DNA of 64,000 bases, taken from the NCBI RefSeq assembly GCF_018474015.1, contig NZ_JAHCSG010000001.1:1178001-1242000 (forward strand), read 5' to 3'. Source of the DNA: Williamsia sp. CHRR-6 (GTDB lineage: Bacteria > Actinomycetota > Actinomycetes > Mycobacteriales > Mycobacteriaceae). Of the stretch, positions 8,448-55,835 are shown piece by piece. The translations under genes were made by a program, and so were the position numbers. The first letter of the stretch is position 1; every line of letters begins with the position of its first letter. The notes beneath the pieces were generated by a model. That model was not told the DNA's origin and did not search any database. It saw nothing but the letters and a program-made list of their open reading frames with translations.

Positions 8448-9217
8448 GCACCACCACCGAGATCATCCGTGCGGTTCGACCCGGCCCGGTGTTCCTCGGT
8501 CTGGTGGCCGGTGCCACCCTCGGCGGTTTCCTGCTCTACGACTCGACCCCCGGGCGCAGCCTGGTGTCGATCAGCGGCACTCTGTTGTTGGTGGTGGGCG
8601 GCTGGATGATCTCGTTGGCGCTGCACGAGTTCGGGCACGCGGTCACCGCGTTCTCGTTCGGCGACAAGAACGTCGAGTTGCGCGGCTACCTCACCCTCAA
8701 CCCGCTGCGCTACACCCATCCGGGGCTGTCGATCGCGCTGCCGGTGGTGATGATCCTGTTGGGCGGCATCGGGTTTCCCGGTGGGGCGGTCTATGTCAAC
8801 CAGCACGGGTTCACCCGCGCGCAGCGCACCATCGTGTCGTTGGCCGGTCCGCTGGCCAACATCGCCATCGGTGCGGCCATCCTCGCGTTCATCCCCACCA
8901 GCTACACCCCGACCAACCTCAACCTGTACTCGGCGCTGGGAATGCTTGCGCTGCTACAGATCACGGCGGCGTTGCTCAACCTGCTCCCGATCCCCGGCTT
9001 CGACGGCTACCACGCCATCGAGCCGTACCTGTCCGACCAGACCCGCCGGAACCTGGCGCCGATCGGGCAGTACGGCTACCTGATCGTGTTCGTGATCCTG
9101 CTGGTACCGGGGCTCAACCGCATCTTCTTCGACGCGGTCTACTGGCTGTTCGAGCTCAGCGGCGTCGACTCGATCATCGCCTCCTACGGCTACGACCTGC
9201 TGGTCTTCTGGCGCTGA
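8444..9217 (+). CDS. site-2-protease-like M50 family membrane peptidase (Rv0359-like)
   Basis: 257 residues from the ATG at 8444 that overlaps the previous stop. The zinc motif HExxH is present as LHEFGHAV near residue 61, and the third-ligand region reads LPIPGFDGYHA near residue 186, both expected for M50 metalloproteases. There are about six hydrophobic segments and no PDZ domain, so it is a small Rv0359 or SpoIVFB-like type. It should cut substrates within the membrane; the substrate is unknown. It ends 6 bases before the convergent flavin-binding gene. Confidence 0.88.
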   Translation: MSTTTEIIRAVRPGPVFLGLVAGATLGGFLLYDSTPGRSLVSISGTLLLVVGGWMISLALHEFGHAVTAFSFGDKNVELRGYLTLNPLRYTHPGLSIALPVVMILLGGIGFPGGAVYVNQHGFTRAQRTIVSLAGPLANIAIGAAILAFIPTSYTPTNLNLYSALGMLALLQITAALLNLLPIPGFDGYHAIEPYLSDQTRRNLAPIGQYGYLIVFVILLVPGLNRIFFDAVYWLFELSGVDSIIASYGYDLLVFWR

Positions 9218-14612: not shown

Positions 14613-14615
14613 CCC

Positions 14616-14699
14616 GTCGGTTGGGCGGTAGTTCCCGTCGGTTGGGCAGAAACTCCCGTCGGTTGGGCAGAAACTCCCGTCGATTGGGCGGTAGTTCCC
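14616..14699 (-). repeat. intergenic 21-bp tandem repeat array (4 units)
   Basis: Four consecutive 21-bp units at 14616, 14637, 14658 and 14679, read on the plus strand as GTCGGTTGGGCGGTAGTTCCC-like copies with a few base changes. The reverse complement core, CGCCCAACCGAC, is the core of two other arrays in this window (18403-18467 and 34197-34314). It begins 3 bases after the small membrane gene and ends just before the fba terminator. Confidence 0.9.
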
Positions 14700-18383: not shown

Positions 18384-18402
18384 GCGATCACCTCCACCTC
18401 GC

Positions 18403-18467
18403 CGCCCAGTGGACGCCGAGTTTCCGCCCAGCGGACGGGATTTTCCGCCCAGTCGACGCGGGATCGG
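18403..18467 (+). repeat. intergenic 21/22-bp tandem repeat array (3 units)
   Basis: Units start at 18403, 18425 and 18446, each beginning CGCCCAGYSGACG (Y = T/C, S = G/C) with a T-rich end TTTC or TTTTC in the first two. They match the arrays at 14.6 and 34.2 kb. The array starts 19 bp after the zinc-ribbon gene stop. Confidence 0.8.
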
Positions 18468-19255: not shown

Positions 19256-20944
19256 GTGCCCGAACTCGCCGTCGACGACATTCGCCTCAGCTGGGACACC
19301 ACCGGCATCACCGTGCACCGTCCCCCGCGAACCGGGTCCGGCCACAAGGCGACGTTCAGCGTGGTGTTTGCCCAACTCAGTGGCGTCTCGTTCCGTCGGG
19401 CCGGCGTGGTAAAGCCTGGCTGGATCGAGTTCGTGCCATACGGCACCCAACCTGCCACCAGATGGTGGGACGCAGTCGATCGCAACCACTGTGTCAGCCT
19501 CGTGAATACTCACAACGCCGCAGTCGAGGAAGTAATGCCGTTGTGGCAGAACCTGATCGCCTCCGCGAACCAGGCTCCTGCACAGGAGCGCTCGATCACC
19601 TGCATGGCAGCACAGTCGAGCTCGCTGGAATTGGGCACCGGCCATGTGACCGTGCAACTCGAGTCGAAGGGCGCTCCGTCAGCCGTTGTCGCATTGAGCG
19701 ACGTCACTGCGTTCGACGTGGACCCTGCGGGCCGTCGAGTCGACCTCGCATGGAGACGCCGAAACCCGGACGGCTCAGTCACGACCGAGGCAGCCGGCTT
19801 CACCAAATGTCAGGATCCTGGTTTCACCGAGATCGTCGGCGCGGCACAGCGTCGACTGCCATCGCACACGTTGAGCAACCCGGTCTATCGGGGCCTCGAT
19901 CTCTGGGTTGCGTTGCACGACAACCAGATCACCGTCACCGAGGGTAGGGGTTCCAAACGCCGTAGCCGAACGATCGAATGCGACGCTGTGACGTCGGTCG
20001 ACTACTCCTTCCGACGCCACGACTACACCGTCCGCCTGCAGCTCACCGACGACCGGCGCGAGAAGCTGACCTTCTCCCACCCCCGGGATGCCGCAGCCTT
20101 CGCAACCGCTGTGGGTGGTGTCAGTGACGACATCGATCGCCGGAAACCCGCACCTGCACAGCCTTTGGCCGCGCAACCCGAAGTCGACCTCACCACTGTC
20201 GGACCCTCCGACCTGAGTCCACGCGCCTATCGGCTTGGGCGTGCGGGTCACACCGTGACCGCCGTGCCGTTTCTCAGCACATCAGACACCGGGATCAATC
20301 TGACCGGTGCCGGACCTGATGGTCAGCGGTGGCTGAGGGCCCATCGCGACGCATCTCCTACACCCCCGTCGCCGCGACGCGGGGCGTGCTCAGTGACCAC
20401 CACTGATGGTCGCCGCCTGCTCGAGATCGGGAAACGCCCTGCGTGGAGACCATGGACCGCCCGACCCATTCACTGTGGACCACACCGCACTCCGCTCACC
20501 GTGCAAGTGCGGGCGGCGACGGTGTGGTTCCACACCTCCTGGCGCACTGCGTATTCCGACAACAGCACTATGATCACGATGTCAGAACCGCTGCGCGACG
20601 CGTTCCTGCGGCGAGTGCTTCGGGTGCCGGCGCGTGGCTTCACCAACACAAGTGGCGGGGGTGGCGGAAGTCTTGCCGACGTCGTGCTCTCCACGCTGCT
20701 GTTGATCGCAACGGTTGCGGTCGGTGCCGCATTTCTGTATCCGTTATCGCTGCTCAAGCGCAATTTTCGATTCATCATCCGCGACGCCGATGGACGACGC
20801 ATCGGGGTGGCTGAACACCGCACGTGGTCGCCACGACCGTCTGACGCCACCACCGTGTGGCTGGACGTGGACGCGCTACGTCGTTACGACGCAAACGAAC
20901 TCCTCGCCGCCACCTACACCCCCATCGTGTCGATCTGGGCGTGA
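19256..20944 (+). CDS. DUF4429-like protein with C-terminal membrane segment (paralogue 1)
   Basis: 562 residues, GTG start at 19256 with AAGGA six bases upstream. Residues 1 to about 300 contain repeated beta-rich blocks of the DUF4429 type (a PH-like fold), for example LDLWVALHDNQITVTEGRGS. The C-terminal 250 residues hold VPFLSTSDTGINLTGAGPDG, a hydrophobic stretch (LSTLLLIATVAVGAAFLYPL) and FRFIIRDADGRRIGVAEH, all of which recur in the next gene. No catalytic motif is evident. It is probably membrane-associated with most of the protein in the cytoplasm. Function unknown. Confidence 0.7.
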   Translation: MPELAVDDIRLSWDTTGITVHRPPRTGSGHKATFSVVFAQLSGVSFRRAGVVKPGWIEFVPYGTQPATRWWDAVDRNHCVSLVNTHNAAVEEVMPLWQNLIASANQAPAQERSITCMAAQSSSLELGTGHVTVQLESKGAPSAVVALSDVTAFDVDPAGRRVDLAWRRRNPDGSVTTEAAGFTKCQDPGFTEIVGAAQRRLPSHTLSNPVYRGLDLWVALHDNQITVTEGRGSKRRSRTIECDAVTSVDYSFRRHDYTVRLQLTDDRREKLTFSHPRDAAAFATAVGGVSDDIDRRKPAPAQPLAAQPEVDLTTVGPSDLSPRAYRLGRAGHTVTAVPFLSTSDTGINLTGAGPDGQRWLRAHRDASPTPPSPRRGACSVTTTDGRRLLEIGKRPAWRPWTARPIHCGPHRTPLTVQVRAATVWFHTSWRTAYSDNSTMITMSEPLRDAFLRRVLRVPARGFTNTSGGGGGSLADVVLSTLLLIATVAVGAAFLYPLSLLKRNFRFIIRDADGRRIGVAEHRTWSPRPSDATTVWLDVDALRRYDANELLAATYTPIVSIWA

Positions 20945-20988
20945 CAGCACCCCGGAACCCATAGGCACCGATCATGTCGAGGGATCAC

Positions 20989-22365
20989 ATGCTCACATCG
21001 CAAGAACCGCAGCTCATCACCTGCCAGTCGTCAGGGGGTGCAGCGGTCACCGTCTCCGCTACCGATGTCATCGTCACCGTCCCACGAGGGATCATCGGTA
21101 CCTATCCCGTCACTCTTGCGCCGCACGAACTCACCGCCTTCGTTGTCGACGAGTCGACGCGATCGCTGATCGTCGGCTGGCAGACCATTGCGCACACCGG
21201 CGAGATCTACCACGACGTCCTACTGATCAGTGACTGCGAGGACCCGGGGTGGTCGCTGCTCCTCACGGCGGGACTACCGCGACTGCCTGCTGAGCCACAG
21301 CGGGCCAGGACTTTTCGAACCCGTAACGGCGCGGTGCTGCTGCTGGACGACCGACTGGTTGTGGACACCGGTTCGTGGCGGCCCAGACACCGATCGGTGA
21401 CCATCCCCCTGCACCTCATCACCGCGGTTGATCACGATCTGCGACCAGACTCCACCACGCGGGAAGTAGGACTGAGGTGGCATCCAGGCCGCGGCAAGCG
21501 GACACTGTCGTTTCCCGACCACGCGCAGGCGCGCCGGTTTTTCATCGCGTTGGATCCGCCTCGATACACGATCAAGCCGCAATGGCGCGACGTGAAGCGT
21601 GAGCAGCTGGTCGACACCGGAGCCGACCGCATCCACGCCGAGGTCCGACAGCATTGGACCACAACGATCTTCGATCGGATCGCCCATCCCGATCCCCGAC
21701 CTCGACAGCGCCGACTAGGCCGGATGGGACGACGCGCCACCGTGGTGCCGTTCCTGTCCACGGGTCCTGGCGGTCTGATGGTGGGTGTCGGCCCGGACGG
21801 GCAGCGCTGGCTGGAAGCCGACAGGACGTGGGGCGAGGACAGCGAAAGGGCTTCCCTCACCGCGCGCGACGGCAGCGTCATCACCGAGATCGAGGCACCT
21901 ACGTGGAGTCTGACGCGGACGGTGCGGCTGGGGACCCACCACGGTGCCGATCTGACCGCCAGGGTCAACGCGATGGTGTTCTTCTACACGCGCTGGAACG
22001 TGCGCGACCACATGAGAAATCGGTTCATCACCGTCACCGAGCCGATCCGCGATGCCGCACTGCGTCGTGTGACGCGCGGTCTGATCGGGGTCTTCGGCCT
22101 TCTCGGCAGCGACATCGGCGGCATCGTGATCATGCTGCTGGTGTATTCGCTGGTATGGCCGCTGTCGGTGGTGAAGCCCAAGTTTCGCTACATCATTCGC
22201 GATTCCACCGGCCGCCGGATCGGTGTCGCCGAGTCACCGGTCCGCTCGTTCGATGCCGCCGCGGCGATGACGGTCTGGATGGATGTCGATGCGATCGCTG
22301 CTGTTTCGCCCCAGCGGCTTCTCGGGGCAATCCATGTGCCCGTCACCACCATCACGCTGTGGTGA
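20989..22365 (+). CDS. DUF4429-like protein with C-terminal membrane segment (paralogue 2)
   Basis: 458 residues from the ATG at 20989, which has GAGGG five bases upstream; an in-frame ATG at 20974 has a poorer ribosome site. It repeats the design of the preceding gene: PH-like/DUF4429 blocks, then VPFLSTGPGGLMVGVGPDG, a hydrophobic stretch (IGGIVIMLLVYSLVWPLSV), FRYIIRDSTGRRIGVAES and MTVWMDVDAIA. The pair arose by tandem duplication and has diverged. It ends 5 bp before the convergent DUF4132 gene. Confidence 0.7.
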   Translation: MLTSQEPQLITCQSSGGAAVTVSATDVIVTVPRGIIGTYPVTLAPHELTAFVVDESTRSLIVGWQTIAHTGEIYHDVLLISDCEDPGWSLLLTAGLPRLPAEPQRARTFRTRNGAVLLLDDRLVVDTGSWRPRHRSVTIPLHLITAVDHDLRPDSTTREVGLRWHPGRGKRTLSFPDHAQARRFFIALDPPRYTIKPQWRDVKREQLVDTGADRIHAEVRQHWTTTIFDRIAHPDPRPRQRRLGRMGRRATVVPFLSTGPGGLMVGVGPDGQRWLEADRTWGEDSERASLTARDGSVITEIEAPTWSLTRTVRLGTHHGADLTARVNAMVFFYTRWNVRDHMRNRFITVTEPIRDAALRRVTRGLIGVFGLLGSDIGGIVIMLLVYSLVWPLSVVKPKFRYIIRDSTGRRIGVAESPVRSFDAAAAMTVWMDVDAIAAVSPQRLLGAIHVPVTTITLW

Positions 22366-22370
22366 TCGTT

Positions 22371-25300
22371 TCAGGATGCTCGGCCCACCAGCTGTTCCAG
22401 GATGGTCGGATCGGTGATCTTCGAGTCCCGGGCCAGCAGAACGACTTTCGAGATGATCTCGGCAGTGCGTGGATCGTCGTCGGCGAACGGCAAGAAGACG
22501 CGCCCCCGATGTTGGGCTGACACTGCGATGATGCACACCGCGTTGCCGGGCAACAGGTGCACCTGACCGGAACCGAGATGGATCGAATAGCGCCCCAACG
22601 AGCCCTCGATCAGCACGTGGTGGGCCCCGACATCCACGTTGTCCAGCGACAACATCTCGGCGGTCTCGGCCACCAGTCGCGCCCGCACCTCGATCGAGGA
22701 CTCCGAGGTCTGTGGGTCAACCCCGCCGGCGTGCGCCACCGAGACCACCAGGTCCAGGTCCCGCATCACTTCCGAGAACACCCGCGGCGCAACATCATCC
22801 AACACGACCGGATGGTTTGTGCCGGAGGGGACGAAGTACAGGTTGCCCAGCGTGGGCAGTTCCACGTCGCCGGGAGTGCCCCACGCCGAATCGAGCATCA
22901 CCCACGCGGTGAGCTTCTCGGCATGGAAGGTGCGCGAATATCCGCTCCCCTGGTCAGCCACCCAGCCACGTTCGGTGAACAGCGCTCGCGCTTGGGCCGG
23001 TTGGACCTGATGGCCCGCGTAGCGCCGTGAGCGGATGCCTGCCTCGTCACGCTCGTTTGCGTTGAGTGTGTACAGCTCTCGGAACAGCTGCTTGAACGGC
23101 TGGGTGCGGCGCTGTGCCATCACCGCATGCTGAAGCGCGGGCCATTCACCCGAGGCCAGCAGATCAATCGGGTGGGCCACCCGCACCGCCCCCATCGCAC
23201 GCTGCGCCTGGCCATCACCGTCCATCAGGGTCACCGATGTGGTGCCATCACTGCCGCCGAAAAACCCGACGAAACCCTCGGAATCGACCATCACCAGATC
23301 GGCCAGCATGGGCGCGATGATCGGGTGCTCTGCCAGCGCCGCGATCTCGCCCGGCTCGCACGGATCGCCCAGCACAGCAGCATCTTCCAGCGACCGACGC
23401 ATTCGCTTACGCTGCGACCGCAGCTCGGCGGCCCGCTGCCGCAACGCAGCGATCTCAGGGACCTTCGCCGACTTCGTCGGCACCGCCGCCAGGGTCTTGG
23501 CACCACGACGCACCTGCAGCTCGGGGTTGCCCTCGGCGTCCACCGACAGACTCACTTCAAGGTCACCGTCGGTTGCGCTGATGGGCCCAGCCATCAGGTC
23601 TTTCACCGCCGCAGTCTCCATCGCCCACCGAAGTCGTTGCGGATCACGATATCCCGCAGTACGGGCCAGGTTGTCCAGCCCGATCAGCATGGCCGTACGT
23701 TCGGAGGCGCGTCGCTGCGAACCCGAGGTGCGGTCCGAGCGCACGAAGTCTGAGATCAGCTCGTAGCGGGCCAGCAGGTCGCTCTCACCCGCCAAGGGCA
23801 CCAAGCCCAGCGCCCGGACCGAATCCTGGTGTCGCTTGGTTGAGATCCGCTGCTGCAGTTCATCAGTGGTCACCGAGGCCAACAAAGCGGTGGCGAACAG
23901 TTCAGCGCGCTTGTGACCGCCGGCCGAGGACGCGTACTTCCCCGCCGCCAGTATCCGCCGGAACTCTTTCTCCCCCAGAGTATCCAGCATCTCGGTGAAC
24001 CACGCGACGTCGGTGGCCCCATTCACCAGGTCATCGGCGGCCAGCGGCGTACGTTGGCTCACCTCACTGGTCCATTCGCTGCGGGTGTCGGCGTCGACCG
24101 ACCACGACGAGTCCTTGGTGTGCGCGTGGATCCACCACACCGCCGATTCCAGACCGGCCAGTCCCAGGTGCTGCTCGATCAGCGCTGCCCACTGGGGCGC
24201 ATACACCGCCACCTCGACCTGCCTGCCCACACTCACCCCCGCCGCCGCGAGTTCGGCGCCCAGGGTGGCTGCGGTGTCCTCCGCATCCGGCCAGGTACCC
24301 CGAACCAGTTGCGAGAGAATCGATTCCCTGGTGGTCGTCCACACGTAACCGCGCACAAACGGGCGCTTACCCAGCGCCGCCACCGCACGCACCAGATTGG
24401 CGGCGCCGTACACGGTGCGGATCCGGTCAGCCAGGTAGGTGACCGGGGTGGGCAGGTCTCCGCGCTCGAACTCGATGTCGAGCACCACCGAGCGCACCTC
24501 GTCGACCACCTCCTGCAGCCGGGGGGCGGTGGCCCACGGATCGGGTCGCCGCCGGGTCACGCTGTGCAACATGATCGAATGGCGACCGCCGAACTCATCG
24601 GGTCGGACAAGGGCTTCGAGCAGATCGTCGCGGGTGGCCAGGCCGCGGGTGAAGACATCTGCGACGAGACGTTGGGACGCCGGTACGCGAAATGGCCGGT
24701 CGGGCGCGGTCTCGCCGGAATCGGAGTCTGGGACCGGCACGCGTGGGCCATTCCATTCGTCGTATGCGCCTTCAGGCTCGTCCACGAAACGCGCGCTTGC
24801 CCACAGCCGTTGACGCTGGGCGTCGGAAAGACCCTCCGGCATGTCACACAGCGGCTCCAACAGATTGCGCAGCGCGCTGCGCGGTTCGGGTACGGCCACC
24901 GATCCCCAGCTGTGGCGCTTCAGCTCGATCCCCCGGTGCGCGAGGAACGCATCCGATCCGTGACACGTCCCGACATCCAGCGCCGCCGCCATCGTCTCCA
25001 GGTGATCGAGCATCACCGGCACCCAACCACGGTGCCGCAGCGAATCGCTGAGGTCGTAGATGAAGCTTCGTCCGATCCGCGGTAGCTCCCACCATGCCTC
25101 GACTGCCGCCGAACCGACAACGATCTCCGACACCCGGTGCGTCCACAGGTCGGGATGTCTCATCGCCGCAAGCAGTTCCAGTTCCACTCCCCCCTCGGTG
25201 AGAGTGGGTTGCACGCGTTCCCACCACGGCCCGAACACCTCGGCCAATGGAACTTGTCCGGCTGGGACCGACGGGATCCACCGCAGGTTGACCAGCAATT

Positions 25301-27122
25301 CCGGGTCGCTGAACACCTTCACCTCGGTTTCGGCGTGCTCTGCGAAAAAGGCTTTCAACGATGTGATCAGGCTCAGGCAGCGGTCATGAAACCCCGCCCA
25401 CACAGCTGGATCCGGCGGCGTGGGACGCACCGCCGGAGTACGCAATTCGACGTTGGGTGTCAACACGGCAGGGAAGGTGGCTTCGGTCTCTGCCTGGGCG
25501 CTTTCGCGCAACTCCTGCGCCGCGCGCTTCTGTTCGGCAGTACCGGATTCCAGCCGGGCGATGCTGGCCGCCACTGCGTCGGGTTCCTGAGACTGCAGAC
25601 GCCGCAACACGATGGTGCGCACGTCAGCGGACTTACGGGTCAGGTACTTCTCGATCTGGCGAGCCTCGTCGTCGGTGATCGACGCAAACGCCTCGATCGA
25701 CCCGCCCACCACCTTGCGCACGTCAGCGCTCTTGTCAGCGAGCATCGCGAACAACTCGCTCCGATAGGTCGCGGGCTTGAGGCAGAACCGGAGCGCCATC
25801 TTGCGTCGGCCCACCGGGCTGGCCAGGTCGATGATGTCCCAGCGTGATTCCAGACCTGTCCCGTGGGTCACCAGCACATCGGCCGCAGCCGATTGCGAGA
25901 TCTCGATGGTGTTCTCACCGATGATGGCCACGTCGATCTTGGTGGGCTTGCCCAGCGTCGGTAGGCGCTTGTCCAGTGCCGCAATCCCTTCTGGCGGAAG
26001 CGGGTGGTCGGTCCAGCCATTCCACAGCCCCAGTGCCACGGCGAACACAGCGGGATCAGGGTCGCCCAGGGCGGCCGACAACGCCGCAGCCGCTGTGGGG
26101 GTGTTGATGTCGCGCAGCATCCGAGCAGCCGCGAGTCGCTGCCCGGGATCACCGTGAGCCAGGATCTGCGCAGCCACATCGATGGTCGGCACGATGTCGT
26201 GCAGCGCGCAGGCCCACAGCCCGACGAACACGTCGAGCGCGGGCTCGGCGAGCAGTCGATGCGCGAGATCATCGGTGCTGGAATCGTATTCGTCCAGCCA
26301 TCGGATCATCGCCGCGACCAGGCCGGCCACCTCGCGCTCTTTGGCCACGGTCAACTCCTCGCCCACCCACACCCCCACCGCACGAACGGTGGCGGCGAAG
26401 CGGATCAGCCCATGGTCGGCCACGGCCTGCAACAGGGTGCGCAGGCCACCGGGATGCGCCAGGTCCGCCGACTCCAGGATGACCTGTCGCAGGCCCTCGG
26501 AGCGTTGCGCGGCCACCAGGTTCTCGGCCACCAGCTGCCAATACCGAGGCTCGGGAACAGCAAGCAACGCCGAGTAGGCGACTCGAGATGGACCACAGAT
26601 CTCATGTTCACCGCGCAGCTGTGACGCCAGCTCCTCGGCGATCGCGCTGTGGCCGTTGATGATCGCAGTGGCGAACACTGCGGCCATCGAAAAGCCGTAC
26701 GGGTAGGCGTGCTGATGCCATCGCACGTGCCAACTCAGCGGCTGCGCAAACTCCGCCACGTCATAGAGCGTCGAACGAACCATGTGCCAGCGCGCCTGCG
26801 CGGAGTCGGCGGGGTTGCTCGAACGGTATCCCCGACGCATCCATCCCTGCTGATACGGCGCGTCCACACCCCACGTCCACGTCGCGGCGAGTTCGCGTGA
26901 CATCTCCGGGACCATCGCGGCGAAGACTGCCGCTCGCTTGCGGTCGTCGAGCTCGTCGAGCCGGGCACACAGGTCGGTGGTGGGCAGTCGCGAATCATTC
27001 ATCGCCGCCGCCACATTGCGCGCCAACGCTGATGCCCGCGGTTTCGCACGAATGGTGCGAAAGGTTTCATCGGTGGTCCGGTACTGCGCGAGTTGTTCGC
27101 GTGCTTGCTCATTCGAGAGCAT
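22371..27122 (-). CDS. giant HEAT-repeat / DUF4132 protein (MolR/YehI-like)
   Basis: 1583 residues, soluble, no signal peptide or membrane segment. Residues 1 to about 560 are helical with HEAT-like repeats (DPGQRLAAARMLRDINTPTA, then ALGDPDPAVFAVALGLW). A long helical middle leads to a DUF4132 core around 1240-1400, recognised by QPFKQLFRELYTLN, RYAGHQV and LFTERGWV. The C-terminal about 110 residues (RDLDLVVSVAHAGGVDPQTS, then HVLIEGSLGRYSIHLGSG) match the domain that usually ends DUF4132 proteins (DUF7737). E. coli YehI and MolR are relatives, but the WGR domain seen in some is absent. Biochemical role unknown. It starts 2 bp after a ubiquitin-like gene, so both are surely co-translated. 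Confidence 0.8.
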   Translation of the reverse strand: MLSNEQAREQLAQYRTTDETFRTIRAKPRASALARNVAAAMNDSRLPTTDLCARLDELDDRKRAAVFAAMVPEMSRELAATWTWGVDAPYQQGWMRRGYRSSNPADSAQARWHMVRSTLYDVAEFAQPLSWHVRWHQHAYPYGFSMAAVFATAIINGHSAIAEELASQLRGEHEICGPSRVAYSALLAVPEPRYWQLVAENLVAAQRSEGLRQVILESADLAHPGGLRTLLQAVADHGLIRFAATVRAVGVWVGEELTVAKEREVAGLVAAMIRWLDEYDSSTDDLAHRLLAEPALDVFVGLWACALHDIVPTIDVAAQILAHGDPGQRLAAARMLRDINTPTAAAALSAALGDPDPAVFAVALGLWNGWTDHPLPPEGIAALDKRLPTLGKPTKIDVAIIGENTIEISQSAAADVLVTHGTGLESRWDIIDLASPVGRRKMALRFCLKPATYRSELFAMLADKSADVRKVVGGSIEAFASITDDEARQIEKYLTRKSADVRTIVLRRLQSQEPDAVAASIARLESGTAEQKRAAQELRESAQAETEATFPAVLTPNVELRTPAVRPTPPDPAVWAGFHDRCLSLITSLKAFFAEHAETEVKVFSDPELLVNLRWIPSVPAGQVPLAEVFGPWWERVQPTLTEGGVELELLAAMRHPDLWTHRVSEIVVGSAAVEAWWELPRIGRSFIYDLSDSLRHRGWVPVMLDHLETMAAALDVGTCHGSDAFLAHRGIELKRHSWGSVAVPEPRSALRNLLEPLCDMPEGLSDAQRQRLWASARFVDEPEGAYDEWNGPRVPVPDSDSGETAPDRPFRVPASQRLVADVFTRGLATRDDLLEALVRPDEFGGRHSIMLHSVTRRRPDPWATAPRLQEVVDEVRSVVLDIEFERGDLPTPVTYLADRIRTVYGAANLVRAVAALGKRPFVRGYVWTTTRESILSQLVRGTWPDAEDTAATLGAELAAAGVSVGRQVEVAVYAPQWAALIEQHLGLAGLESAVWWIHAHTKDSSWSVDADTRSEWTSEVSQRTPLAADDLVNGATDVAWFTEMLDTLGEKEFRRILAAGKYASSAGGHKRAELFATALLASVTTDELQQRISTKRHQDSVRALGLVPLAGESDLLARYELISDFVRSDRTSGSQRRASERTAMLIGLDNLARTAGYRDPQRLRWAMETAAVKDLMAGPISATDGDLEVSLSVDAEGNPELQVRRGAKTLAAVPTKSAKVPEIAALRQRAAELRSQRKRMRRSLEDAAVLGDPCEPGEIAALAEHPIIAPMLADLVMVDSEGFVGFFGGSDGTTSVTLMDGDGQAQRAMGAVRVAHPIDLLASGEWPALQHAVMAQRRTQPFKQLFRELYTLNANERDEAGIRSRRYAGHQVQPAQARALFTERGWVADQGSGYSRTFHAEKLTAWVMLDSAWGTPGDVELPTLGNLYFVPSGTNHPVVLDDVAPRVFSEVMRDLDLVVSVAHAGGVDPQTSESSIEVRARLVAETAEMLSLDNVDVGAHHVLIEGSLGRYSIHLGSGQVHLLPGNAVCIIAVSAQHRGRVFLPFADDDPRTAEIISKVVLLARDSKITDPTILEQLVGRAS

Positions 27123-27124
27123 GC

Positions 27125-27526
27125 TCAGCCTCCGACCAGCGCGACCAGACGCACCAACCGCAGGGTGCTGGCGGTACCTAGTGGCACGGGCGCATCCAGG
27201 TCCTCGATCTGGGTGCCGTCGACGAAGACGAAGAACAGCCCATCGCCGAACGCCTCGATCGCGCGCTCGATGGCCGTGTCGAGCGGTGGTGGGGCGGGCA
27301 GCGTGCGCTGCTCGCGACCGTAGGACCCCGACTCCACGCCGCGCGCGAGATCGGCGGGGGTGAGCACCCGCAATGTTCGACTTTGCTCGCGGTGACGTTC
27401 GTAGTCGGCGATCTCTTGGCGCACAAGGTGTGTCAACACCTCTCGCAGCGTGGACACCTCCGGCCCGATCTCGACATCGCGTACCTCAGCGGGCCCGGCC
27501 CCGACCACCCGTGTCTCTACGATCAC
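27125..27526 (-). CDS. ubiquitin-like beta-grasp protein ending in Gly-Gly (MoaD/ThiS-like), DUF4132 partner
   Basis: 133 residues from a GTG at 27526. The predicted order is strand (1-8), strand (14-20), helix (25-50), an about 40-residue insertion, helix (83-93), then strands ending FVFVDGTQIEDLDAPVPLG, TLRLVRLVALVGG. This is the beta-grasp order of MoaD, ThiS and ubiquitin, with an insertion after the first helix. The free C-terminal Gly-Gly is the hallmark of family members that are adenylated by an E1-like enzyme. No ThiF/MoeB-type E1, E2 or JAB peptidase is in the window. The sequence is not a standard MoaD or ThiS. It sits 41 bp after the histidine kinase and 2 bp before the DUF4132 gene. 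The fold is inferred by eye. Confidence 0.6.
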   Translation of the reverse strand: MIVETRVVGAGPAEVRDVEIGPEVSTLREVLTHLVRQEIADYERHREQSRTLRVLTPADLARGVESGSYGREQRTLPAPPPLDTAIERAIEAFGDGLFFVFVDGTQIEDLDAPVPLGTASTLRLVRLVALVGG

Positions 27527-27567: not shown

Positions 27568-29181
27568 CTAACGAGAACATTCGGTCACCGACGTGGTGCC
27601 GCCGGGCAGCACCACGGTGAACACCGCGCCACCACCGTCGGCGTTGTCGACGGTGATCTCACCGCCCATGGCGGCGACCAGCCCGGAGGACAACATCAGC
27701 CCCAACCCGTAGCCGTCGACGTCGGATGCGGTCTCGGCGCGCGCGAACGGGGTGAACATCTGCGGCAGCTGCTCTGCGGCGATGCCGGGGCCGTCGTCGG
27801 TGACGGTGATGCGCACTGTGTGCGCCGACCGGTCGGCCCGGATCTGCACCAGGCCGGCACGGCGGCCATGCCGAATCGCGTTGCCCACGATGTTGAGCAG
27901 CACCTGTCGAAGTCGCCCGCGGTCGCAAAGCACGGTCACCGTCGCCTCGATGTGCGAGTCGATGGTCACTCGCCGAGCGGTGGCCTCTGCCGCCAGCAGG
28001 TCGACGACCGAACCCGCGACCTCGGCCACGTTCACCGGCTCACGACCCACCGTCAGGACACCCGCTTCGGCCCGGCTCACGTCGAGGACGTCGGTGACGA
28101 CGCTGAGCAGATGATCAGCGGCGACGTTGATCCGGGCGAGTGCCTCGCGCCGTTGATCACCACTGAGGTCCAGGGTGGACAGCAGCTCGGAGAACCCTTT
28201 GATGGCCTGCAGCGGGGTGCGTACCTCGTGGCTCACCGCCGAGAGCAGCGCTGATTTTGCTCGGCTGTGCTCCTCGGCGATCCGGCGCGCCAGGTCGGCC
28301 TGGTCGCGAGCGGCGCGGGCGGCCTGCGCGGCCCGCTGCGCGGTCAAGTCCACCACGTCGAGGGCGACATGGGCGGGCAGGTTGTCGCGCCCGCGCACCA
28401 GCGAGAAGGTGACCTCCACCGGGCGCCTCGTCCCGTCGGCGGCGTGAACGGTCAACAGCTCGGTGATCACCGCTTCGTGAGACCCGTTGAGCACGTTCCG
28501 GATTCGCTTCTCAACCGGCGCCGCCACCGGCAAGACCGTGTGCAGCGGTGCACCGACCATGGTCGCAGCGGGACACCCGCTCATCCGGGCGAACGCAGAG
28601 TTCACCCGCTCAAATCGGATGTCGAGCCCCAGCAGCGCCGCCCCAGCGGGGTTGTCGTCGAAGAAGCGCCGGAACAGTTCGGCCGTCTCGGTCAGCTCAC
28701 CCATCAGGCGACCGTGTTCGAGGGCCACCGACGCCAATGCCGTGACCCGCTCCACCAGACGCCGCTCACGCGCCGTGGGATGGTGCGGCACATCGTGATA
28801 CACCGCGAACGTGCCGATTGTGTCCTCTCGGGGGTCAAGGATCGGTGACGACCAGCAGGCCACCAACCCCGAGGCCATCGCGACGTCGCGAAACGGCGTC
28901 CACCGGTCGTCGTCGCGGACATCGCTGACGATCACCGGCTCACCCAGAAATGCTGCGGTGCCGCATGATCCGGCCTTCGGCCCTATCCTGATCCCATCGA
29001 TGGCCCGCAGGTAGGTGGCGGGCAGGCTCGGTGCGGCGCCGTGGGTCAACGCCTGACCGGAGGCGTCGACGACGAGGATCGAACAGCGGGCGCCCGGCAT
29101 CAGAGCTTCGAGCGCGCTGATGATCTCGTCCAACACCTCTTCCAGCCGCGCCGCCCGCGCCACCAGCTCGAGCACCCGCAT
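27568..29181 (-). CDS. cytosolic sensor histidine kinase (GAF-PAS-HisKA-HATPase)
   Basis: 537 residues. A TAG stands directly before the ATG, so the N-terminus is fixed. Residues about 10-160 form a GAF domain (GPKAGSCGTAAFLGEPVIV). About 165-290 form a PAS domain. The phospho-acceptor His lies in SAVSHEVRTPLQAIKGF, and the ATPase N, G1 and G2 boxes are LLNIVGNAIRHG, DDGPGIA and GYGLGLM. There is no membrane segment, so it senses an internal signal. It is 74 bp downstream of the response regulator gene, its presumed partner. Confidence 0.92.
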   Translation of the reverse strand: MRVLELVARAARLEEVLDEIISALEALMPGARCSILVVDASGQALTHGAAPSLPATYLRAIDGIRIGPKAGSCGTAAFLGEPVIVSDVRDDDRWTPFRDVAMASGLVACWSSPILDPREDTIGTFAVYHDVPHHPTARERRLVERVTALASVALEHGRLMGELTETAELFRRFFDDNPAGAALLGLDIRFERVNSAFARMSGCPAATMVGAPLHTVLPVAAPVEKRIRNVLNGSHEAVITELLTVHAADGTRRPVEVTFSLVRGRDNLPAHVALDVVDLTAQRAAQAARAARDQADLARRIAEEHSRAKSALLSAVSHEVRTPLQAIKGFSELLSTLDLSGDQRREALARINVAADHLLSVVTDVLDVSRAEAGVLTVGREPVNVAEVAGSVVDLLAAEATARRVTIDSHIEATVTVLCDRGRLRQVLLNIVGNAIRHGRRAGLVQIRADRSAHTVRITVTDDGPGIAAEQLPQMFTPFARAETASDVDGYGLGLMLSSGLVAAMGGEITVDNADGGGAVFTVVLPGGTTSVTECSR

Positions 29182-29255
29182 CTACCGGCCCAACAGCACC
29201 GCGACATCGCCTGGGTGTAGTTCGTCGACCGATGCCGGTGGGGCGAGGCGCGCGG

Positions 29256-30011
29256 TCACCCAGCCCCTCCACAGTCCGGGTCGAAACGGTAGCCGACCCC
29301 GCGAATCGTCCGAATACAACTGCTGCCGTGCGCTTTTCCGATCTTCGTGCGCAGCCGATGGATGTGTTCGGTCACCGTCGCCTCACCCAGCCACTGCGCC
29401 GAGTGCCACACCGTGTCCAACAGTTGATGGCGGGTGAACACCTGACGTGGATGGCTGGCCAAGAACAGGAGCAGGTCGAACTCCTTTGCTGTGGCGTCGA
29501 TGTCACGACCATCGACACTCACCTCGCGGCTAATCGAGTCGATGCGCAGGGGCCCGGAGGCCAGCACCGACGTGGTGGCCGGCCGGCCCGCTCGACGTAG
29601 CAGTGAGCGCACCCGGGCTGCCAACTCGCCCGGCGAAAACGGCTTGATCAGGTAGTCGTCGGCCCCGCTGTCCAGCCCTGCGATCCGATCGCACTCACCG
29701 CTGCGGCCAGACAGGATGATCACCGGTACGTCGACCGGAACCCCGGCCCGTCCCGACCTGATCGCACGGATCAGGTCCATGCCGCCGACCACCGGAAGCG
29801 TGAGGTCCACGACGATCAGCCGCGGCACCTCGCGGGAGAGAATCTGCAACGCCACGGCACCGTCGTCGGCCTCGACCACGTCGAACCCACACTCGTCGAG
29901 CTGCCAGTGCACGACGGTGCGGATGCTGGAGTCGTCCTCGACCACCAGGATTCGTGGCCGCACAGCGCGGACGGCCGGAGTGGCTGCACCGTCGGGCTCC
30001 ACCGGCGACAT
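29256..30011 (-). CDS. response regulator, OmpR/PhoB family
   Basis: 251 residues from the ATG at 30011, which has AGAGG six bases upstream; a GTG at 30029 is an alternative. The receiver domain (about 15-130) has acidic residues in ILVVEDDSS, the phospho-acceptor Asp in LIVVDLTLPVVGG and Lys in YLIKPFSPGEL. The winged-helix DNA-binding domain follows (ATAKEFDLLLFLASHP, IRTIRGVGYRFDP). It is upstream of the kinase on the same strand. Confidence 0.94.
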   Translation of the reverse strand: MSPVEPDGAATPAVRAVRPRILVVEDDSSIRTVVHWQLDECGFDVVEADDGAVALQILSREVPRLIVVDLTLPVVGGMDLIRAIRSGRAGVPVDVPVIILSGRSGECDRIAGLDSGADDYLIKPFSPGELAARVRSLLRRAGRPATTSVLASGPLRIDSISREVSVDGRDIDATAKEFDLLLFLASHPRQVFTRHQLLDTVWHSAQWLGEATVTEHIHRLRTKIGKAHGSSCIRTIRGVGYRFDPDCGGAG

Positions 30012-30070
30012 CGCAGACCTCTGTGTCACACGTCACACTGTACCGGCGATCGGCGGCGGTGCGGCCAGGG

Positions 30071-34196: not shown

Positions 34197-34314
34197 CGCC
34201 CACTGGACGAGATTTAGCGCCCAGTGGACGGGGACTTCCGCCCAACCGACGCCGGTTTCCGCCCAACCGACGCCGGTTTCCGCCCAACCGACGCCGGTTT
34301 CCGCCCAACCGACG
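34197..34314 (+). repeat. intergenic 21-bp tandem repeat array (about 5.6 units)
   Basis: Units start at 34197, 34218, 34239, 34260, 34281 and 34302. The middle three are identical, with core CGCCCAACCGACG and end TTTC; the first two are divergent (CGCCCASTGGACG, S = C/G). It fills the whole gap between the convergent ankyrin and pepN stops and belongs to the same family as the 14.6 and 18.4 kb arrays. Confidence 0.93.
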
Positions 34315-54653: not shown

Positions 54654-55835
54654 ATGACCAGAGGTTCGACGACGAGCAGACGCACACCGCAGATCATCGG
54701 GATCGGCGCGGCCACCGGCTACGGGTGGGGTCGCGACGCCCTGTGGAACGGTGTGAGCAGCGGAAAGCCGGCCGGAGTGTTGTACGGCGGATACGGCCGC
54801 AACCAGGATGAGGAGGTGTGGCTGGCGCGGGTCACCGAGGGCGGTGATCCAGCCGACAGTCCCAGTCGGTTCTCGCGCGCCATGCGTGGGGCCGCTCGGG
54901 AGGCCATCGCCGACGCCCACGACCGTGGCTGGACACCCGGGCGCCGGGTGGGATTGCTGCACGCGGTGGTCCTCGGCGACGTGGAGGACTGGCGCACCTT
55001 CTACCTCGACGACGGCGGCCAACGGCGCATCCGGGACTACATGCGGCTGCTGCCGTCCACCCCGATCTCCACGCTGATGCAGGAGTTCGGGTTCCACGGG
55101 CCGGCGATGAACGTCTCGGCCACCTGCAGTTCGGGCAACGTGGGGTTGCTGACGGCCAAGATGTGGCTCGATGCCGGACTCGCCGACGACGTCGTCTGCA
55201 TCACCACCGATCTGTCGCTCACCCCCGAGAACGTCGAACACTTCGTGCGGCTGGGAGCCGGCGTGGTCGATGTCGAGCCGCTGGAGGCCTGCCGCCCGTT
55301 CCAGGAAGGCAGCCGCGGCTTCGCGATGGGAGAGGCCTCGGTGGGTATGGTGGTCACGAAATCGCCTGCGCGAGGCTATCTCTCGATCGAAGGTGGTTCC
55401 ATGACCCACGACGCCTATCACGTGGCGTCGGTCGATCCGGCGCACACCGAGATCATGCGGTGTGTGCACGAGGCCCTCGACGATGCCGGGGTGTCGGCCC
55501 GCGACGTGCGTTATCTCAACGCTCACGGCCCGGGCACCGCACAGTGCGACGCCGCCGAGCGCGCCATCCTGGCAACGGTGCTGGCCCCGGGTGCCCCGTC
55601 GGTGTACTCGATCAAGCCGCTCACCGGCCACTGCCAGGGGGCGGCGGCCGCCGTTGAGATCGCTGCGGCCGCGCTCGGTGCCGAGCACGGCGTGGTGCCC
55701 GCCCCACCGCAGGTGGCGCCCGCCCATCCGCAGTTGCTCAACGGGGCCACCCCGATGGTCGACGGCCTGATCGTCAAGCCGTCGTTGGGCATGGGTGGGC
55801 ACAACTCGGTGGTCGTGTTGGCACCCGTCGGCTGA
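54654..55835 (+). CDS. stand-alone beta-ketoacyl synthase-like protein
   Basis: 393 residues. The AGGAGA site fits either ATG 54654 or the GTG one codon earlier. Thiolase-fold ketosynthase: nucleophile Cys in MNVSATCSSGNVGLL, His in LNAHGPGTAQCDAAE and second His in IKPLTGHCQGAAAAVE, so the Cys-His-His triad is complete. It is somewhat shorter than FabF and KasA (about 415). No acyl carrier protein, acyltransferase or reductase is adjacent, so the pathway is unknown; a fatty acid or polyketide-like condensation is the family role. Confidence 0.85.
   Translation: MTRGSTTSRRTPQIIGIGAATGYGWGRDALWNGVSSGKPAGVLYGGYGRNQDEEVWLARVTEGGDPADSPSRFSRAMRGAAREAIADAHDRGWTPGRRVGLLHAVVLGDVEDWRTFYLDDGGQRRIRDYMRLLPSTPISTLMQEFGFHGPAMNVSATCSSGNVGLLTAKMWLDAGLADDVVCITTDLSLTPENVEHFVRLGAGVVDVEPLEACRPFQEGSRGFAMGEASVGMVVTKSPARGYLSIEGGSMTHDAYHVASVDPAHTEIMRCVHEALDDAGVSARDVRYLNAHGPGTAQCDAAERAILATVLAPGAPSVYSIKPLTGHCQGAAAAVEIAAAALGAEHGVVPAPPQVAPAHPQLLNGATPMVDGLIVKPSLGMGGHNSVVVLAPVG

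Follow-up and report, generated by a model that had tools for sequence, protein, structure and literature searches.

In Deinococcus radiodurans, the accessible text of PMC8533742 tabulates DRA0165 as part of a putative operon with drA0166, carrying a DdrO site at -83, and reports that drA0165–drA0166 is strongly upregulated upon DdrO depletion and that tagged DRA0166 increases after mitomycin C in the wild type and not in an irrE mutant. In the accessible sections of PMC9650054 (2022), DR_A0165 is named SEP068184, its knockout is reported to have benefited antioxidant capacity, catalase activity, and katA expression, the protein is found to bind thioredoxin Trx1 in pull-downs, and its predicted fold is described as MoaD-like, resembling MOCS2A and SAMP1. 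It is presented there as an antioxidant regulator found only in Deinococcus and without a DdrO motif, and those sections discuss neither its terminal Gly-Gly nor a pairing with a DUF4132/DUF7737 protein. Here, we analyzed a 64,000-nucleotide stretch of the genome of the actinobacterium Williamsia sp. CHRR-6 (contig NZ_JAHCSG010000001.1, positions 1,178,001 to 1,242,000; hereafter the window), in which a small gene encoding a ubiquitin-like (Ubl) protein with a Gly-Gly end directly precedes a giant gene of the DUF4132–DUF7737 type. We propose, with a probability of about 0.85, that the two proteins form a dedicated Ubl–partner module. As far as could be seen, the predicted fold and the stress regulation are already known in Deinococcus, and the spread, the conserved tail, and the dedicated partner domain appear to be new. 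In a literature search that left most subscription papers and preprints outside its reach, the pairing, the conserved Gly-Gly, and the cross-phylum spread were not met in the matches listed, and no title or abstract opening among these joins the small protein to DUF4132 or DUF7737. The DUF4132 literature includes PMC8533742 and PMC9334617, going by their accessible parts; queries on DUF5724, or on MoxR with WGR and ubiquitin-like, returned no literature, and MolR with ubiquitin-like returned unrelated work only.

The Gly-Gly protein, its giant partner, and their distribution

The small gene (27125..27526, minus strand) starts with GTG and encodes 133 residues ending in LVALVGG, its frame closing as VALVGG-TGA with the codons GGA GGC TGA at 27125..27133 (minus strand). 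A spacer of 2 nt (GC) on that strand then leads to the ATG (27122) of the giant gene (22371..27122, minus strand), which encodes 1583 residues. Both frames and their spacing, when read again, are as the first-pass annotation had claimed, namely a 133-residue Gly-Gly protein 2 bp before a 1583-residue DUF4132 protein. The small protein has no significant match in Pfam or NCBIfam. The giant gene, the one DUF4132 gene found in the window genome, displays the succession DUF5724 (E 5e-160), DUF4132 (E 4e-35; residues 1209-1387, 22962..23498, minus strand), and DUF7737 (E 1e-34; residues 1477-1578, 22389..22694, minus strand), the last being the domain whose occurrence goes with that of the small protein, and a HEAT_2 match falls under Pfam's cut-off.

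Counting the window's gene, the family comprises 30 distinct genes across five phyla (31 rows, L044 and L100 being one gene; phyla are taken from record titles and from the groups searched). Among 60 genomes of relatives, a single one (G048) holds a homologue, which is 64% identical, ends in Gly-Gly, and has the same type of partner; with the window genome included, the gene is present in one of eight genomes of the genus and one of 37 of the family, and its distribution is thus patchy. A tblastn search of plasmid records gave four Deinococcus loci, in each of which the small frame ends 2 nt before the DUF4132 gene, and a profile search of a GTDB contig collection gave 11 loci from Pseudonocardiales (G048 again), Nocardioides, Chloroflexota, Armatimonadota, and cyanobacteria. 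The same type of search found the small gene in 5 of 292 genomes of a cyanobacterial sample; in 396 actinobacterial genomes it matched ten times, and nine of these matches, including that of the window genome, were judged true. The tenth (G233, E 8e-4), which lies inside a 520-residue frame without a Gly-Gly end, was judged false. The profile search also has false negatives, since the gene of G316 was missed and found only on inspecting the fetched DUF4132 region, an inspection that was closer for DUF4132/DUF7737-positive genomes than for others.

Identity to the window's small protein ranges from 27% to 64% in a 22-row alignment, and an exact C-terminal Gly-Gly stands at the stop in all 30 distinct genes, so that the conservation implied by the first-pass annotation holds throughout the family; the search profiles include the tail, but it lay beyond the matches that led to the four Deinococcus genes. 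As a rough comparison, made with frames that are not curated genes, 5 of 285 stop-bounded frames of at least 400 aa in the fetched DNA end in Gly-Gly, one of these five (L085) being a long frame within which a family member lies. In the deposited annotation of one Deinococcus locus (L005, 9001-9405), position 9103 is taken as the start of the small gene, which cuts off about 100 nt of the conserved frame, and the annotated protein therefore lacks the N-terminal strands.

A partner-type gene lies directly downstream on the same strand in 28/30 family genes. In the two remaining cases, the contig stops soon after the small gene (L017) or runs to its end without a partner (L090; a DUF7737 gene lies on another contig of that genome). 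Among the paired loci, L010 and L014 keep only the N-terminal part of the partner on the contig, and the partner frame is broken or cut in L018, L019, L083, L105, and L111. The partners come in two architectures, one of about 1600 residues that matches the N-terminal 1170 residues of the window's giant and one of 744-1004 aa frames without a match to that part; complete partners of both kinds end in DUF7737. The linkage to DUF4132 genes predicted by the first-pass annotation hence recurs in five phyla, in a narrowed form, since it concerns DUF7737-bearing DUF4132 proteins and not DUF4132 as such. Indeed, DUF4132 is present in 19 of the 396 actinobacterial genomes (18 above Pfam's cut-off and G179 below it) and DUF7737 in 10, the small protein being found in the same 10 (nine by profile, G316 by inspection), when the other nine DUF4132 genomes hold neither DUF7737 nor the small protein by the same searches (Fisher p 1.7e-17, computed on profile matches alone and with genomes treated as independent). 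In the cyanobacterial sample, six genomes hold DUF7737 and five of these the small protein (p 3.5e-10), and in 14 named control genomes, DUF7737 is found in none and DUF4132 in one (Escherichia coli). DUF4132 is further found in 20/20 genomes or records holding the small gene, a set chosen for having it. Distances between small proteins and between their partners are correlated (r 0.87, 22 pairs), a value reached by none of 5,000 permutations.

Some DUF7737 genes weigh against a strict pairing. Extra copies without an adjacent small gene occur in G186 (one) and G454 (two), each genome having a small gene elsewhere; G504 has a DUF7737 gene without the conserved cysteine described below and no detected small gene; and the DUF7737 gene of G540 has only about 234 nt of DNA upstream. 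As regards copy number, G454 (Armatimonadota; L100, L101, and L013) carries two small Ubl genes along with four genes of the DUF4132/DUF7737 type, including a tandem pair.

Predicted fold and stress regulation

The AlphaFold2 model of the window's small protein shows the element order of a beta-grasp (mean pLDDT 76.5), and its matches among PDB structures are mostly MoaD/MOCS2A, Urm1, SAMP1, and ubiquitin-like chains. By predicted fold, the small protein is thus of the beta-grasp carrier/modifier type, in line with the beta-grasp-like strand order that the first-pass annotation had read by eye. The inserted segment claimed at the same time, then put at about 40 residues, is also seen in the model, with about 46 residues between its initial long helix (27-51) and strand 98-102. 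At the sequence level, none of 22 family members matched the ThiS/MoaD Pfam family at thresholds up to E 1; hhalign against an alignment of MoaD, CysO, and ThiS of the window genome with E. coli MoaD paired 36 C-terminal columns, Gly-Gly on Gly-Gly, with a probability of 16%; and a PDB sequence search with the Ubl profile gave a single match at E 1.9, which we take as chance.

In one of the four Deinococcus loci (L008), the published DdrO site is found unchanged at positions 8919-8938, its first letter 82 nt ahead of the small gene, and this exact placement identifies the locus as drA0165–drA0166 of D. radiodurans. Two statements in the accessible text of PMC9650054 are therefore contradicted, the restriction to Deinococcus by the homologues in other phyla and the lack of a DdrO motif by the site itself. 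Each of the three remaining Deinococcus loci has a similar palindrome upstream of the small gene; two of these agree fully with the pattern used here, and the third departs from it at 2 positions. Outside Deinococcus, we looked for the palindrome GAAC-N4-GTTC, which we take to be LexA-box-like: among the 29 genes with readable upstream DNA, it is perfect in two Chloroflexota loci (76 nt ahead of the small gene in L012 and 57 nt in L014) and occurs with one mismatch in three more (L007, L017, and the window). With 2/29 perfect and 3/29 one-mismatch boxes, SOS control outside Deinococcus is not established. Upstream of the small gene of one actinobacterial locus (L087), two TTGAAC-N2-GTTCAA palindromes stand close together.

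Possible chemistry of the tail and rival explanations

From the module perspective, a ubiquitin-fold protein with a ready Gly-Gly tail would work together with a large partner whose C-terminal DUF4132–DUF7737 part would be the acceptor or effector, the giant possibly being a scaffold, a ligase, or a target of the Ubl protein, as proposed in the first-pass annotation. That annotation had also noted the lack of a nearby E1, E2, JAB peptidase, or molybdopterin gene and concluded to a minimal or trans-activated system. Within the window genome, the one examined in this respect, E1 and JAB genes linked as in bacterial Ubl conjugation operons are not at the locus, and the claim thus stands for these two (E2 families not having been searched for), both being encoded far away: two ThiF-type E1 matches, one of them strong, lie outside the window, as do CysO with a JAB peptidase and CysM, ThiS, and MoaD (names assigned from sequence and context), and the three ThiS-family matches of the genome are all away from the window. 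Beyond this genome, a ThiF-type E1 was found in 24/24 other genomes, a set without the four plasmid records of Deinococcus. Since every genome tested has an E1 although the window genome has none linked to the pair, a housekeeping E1 of the MoeB/MoeZ type might adenylate the tail in trans. This activation in trans is possible only, given that the ThiF family is also found in 12/14 control genomes and that E1 presence merely permits it. The activated tail would then be received or guided by the partner, perhaps through a DUF7737 cysteine (Cys1530 in the window, codon at 22533..22535, minus strand), and the product would act in a genotoxic or oxidative stress response. The column of this cysteine holds Cys in 33 of the 34 genes in which it is readable (36 rows stand for 35 genes, as L111 occupies two frames, and L041 is truncated at a contig end), the lone gene without it being the DUF7737-like one of G504, where no small protein was detected. 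Whether tail-dependent chemistry is the mechanism of the module appears to us an evenly balanced matter, conjugation of the Ubl protein to proteins being slightly more likely than sulfur delivery.

A more specific version of this scenario would make DUF7737 a highly divergent E2-like transfer domain, whose cysteine would accept the tail of the Ubl protein from a housekeeping E1 in thioester linkage while the HEAT/DUF4132 body would select targets, the whole forming a minimal two-gene ubiquitination-like system of the DNA-damage response. We counted in its favor the predicted element order of DUF7737 (helix, four strands, Cys, two helices) and the coincidence, in G504, of a cysteine-less DUF7737 with no detected small protein; structure comparison gave one weak E2 match to the DUF7737 part, which another chain matches slightly better. 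In a Pfam scan up to E 10, all 23 DUF7737 members examined matched DUF7737; three further families, none of them an E2, appeared in a single member each (E 0.08-0.23). A PDB profile search with DUF7737 likewise met no E2, its two matches being sequences of NDH subunits (E 1.2 and 1.6). Against yeast Ubc4, hhalign gave a score of 15.8, a level also attained by protein chunks (7 of 220) and by shuffles (6 of 60), and the cysteines of the two were not brought into register. No Foldseek match of a 414-residue model reached 0.001 or lower, and a family missing from that result is not thereby excluded. Attractive as it is, the E2-like proposal failed the sequence tests, and we regard it as improbable.

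The tail could instead belong to a sulfur carrier, a MoeZ-type E1 converting its Gly-Gly end into a thiocarboxylate and the giant serving as sulfur acceptor or synthase part, like MoaD with MoaE. The presence of MoaD/MOCS2A among the closest solved folds would fit this, as would the published Trx1 pull-down (PMC9650054, accessible sections). Furthermore, the open frame containing the best ThiF match measures 393-443 aa in 19/24 genomes, presumably the length of a MoeB/MoeZ-type E1 with a rhodanese domain. On the other side stand the 0/22 result with the ThiS/MoaD Pfam family and the giant itself, which matches DUF and HEAT families only (neighbours at other loci not having been typed systematically), and we hold sulfur transfer to be unlikely, though deserving serious attention. 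Comparably unlikely in our eyes is a purely structural role, in which the Ubl protein would dock on the HEAT-like giant with its Gly-Gly in a pocket and without covalent chemistry. The near-constant pairing and joint inheritance suit such a subunit, and so do the lack of a linked E1 in the window genome and the fact that, in the accessible part of PMC9650054, C-terminally tagged versions still bind many proteins; however, a free Gly-Gly in 30/30 genes at identities down to 27% exceeds the usual needs of docking.

The Gly-Gly end might also be suspected to be a mere by-product of the Shine-Dalgarno sequence of the downstream gene, because the window's glycine codons, GGAGGC, contain a GGAGG of Shine-Dalgarno-like look that ends 6 nt before the giant's ATG, and GGA-GGN is found in 10/30 family genes. 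Yet 11 codon combinations encode the glycine pair, 20/30 of the genes use one other than GGA-GGN, and Gly-Gly is kept at L089 with a partner starting 36 nt downstream. Since the glycines are kept while their codons vary, we reject this as a general cause, and it is scarcely credible as an explanation of the tail. Finally, the patchy spread (1/8 in the genus, 1/37 in the family) could evoke an anti-phage or other conflict system, which we deem very improbable in view of the lack of any PADLOC or PHROG match and of the membership in the DNA-damage regulon of Deinococcus.

Surroundings of the pair and comparison with known systems

Upstream of the small gene in the window, at 41 nt and on the same strand, lies a GAF/PAS histidine kinase gene (27568..29181, minus strand), which together with a gene that looks response-regulator-like by eye spans 27568-30029 (minus strand). 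The kinase is outside the conserved module, and its local co-transcription with the small gene is possible. On the plus strand, convergent with the giant gene, 19256-20944 and 20974-22365 encode adjacent proteins that are alike by eye and without a Pfam match. Arrays of 21-bp tandem units, also alike by eye, are found at 14613-14689, 18402-18459, 34236-34314, and 55692-55733, possibly as members of a dispersed repeat family.

With regard to known systems, E. coli MolR/YehI and the window's giant have the DUF4132 domain in common; YehI ends at this domain, without DUF7737, whereas DUF7737 follows it in the giant. At the E. coli locus yehF-yehH-yehI-yehK-yehL-yehM-yehP-yehQ, no small Ubl gene is annotated, and MoxR and VWA genes adjoin yehI; the scan in the window covered the nearest neighbours, which are not of such kind. 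From MoaD/MOCS2A, ThiS, CysO, Urm1, and SAMP1, the small family is set apart by its lack of a family-level sequence match, its inserted helical segment, its giant dedicated partner, and, in the window genome, the absence of a linked E1; it shares with all of them the predicted beta-grasp fold and the free C-terminal Gly-Gly. A Ubl protein with such a tail, almost constantly paired with one kind of partner in at least five phyla and belonging to the radiation response regulon of D. radiodurans, has no matching Pfam or NCBIfam family. If its tail were chemically used, this would add a new protein-modification or sulfur-transfer system to a well-studied stress-tolerant bacterium, and DUF7737, and through it a branch of DUF4132, gains a biochemical role that can be tested. 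In this respect, DR_A0165–DRA0166 is itself a member of the family, presenting at L008 the same pair as the window.
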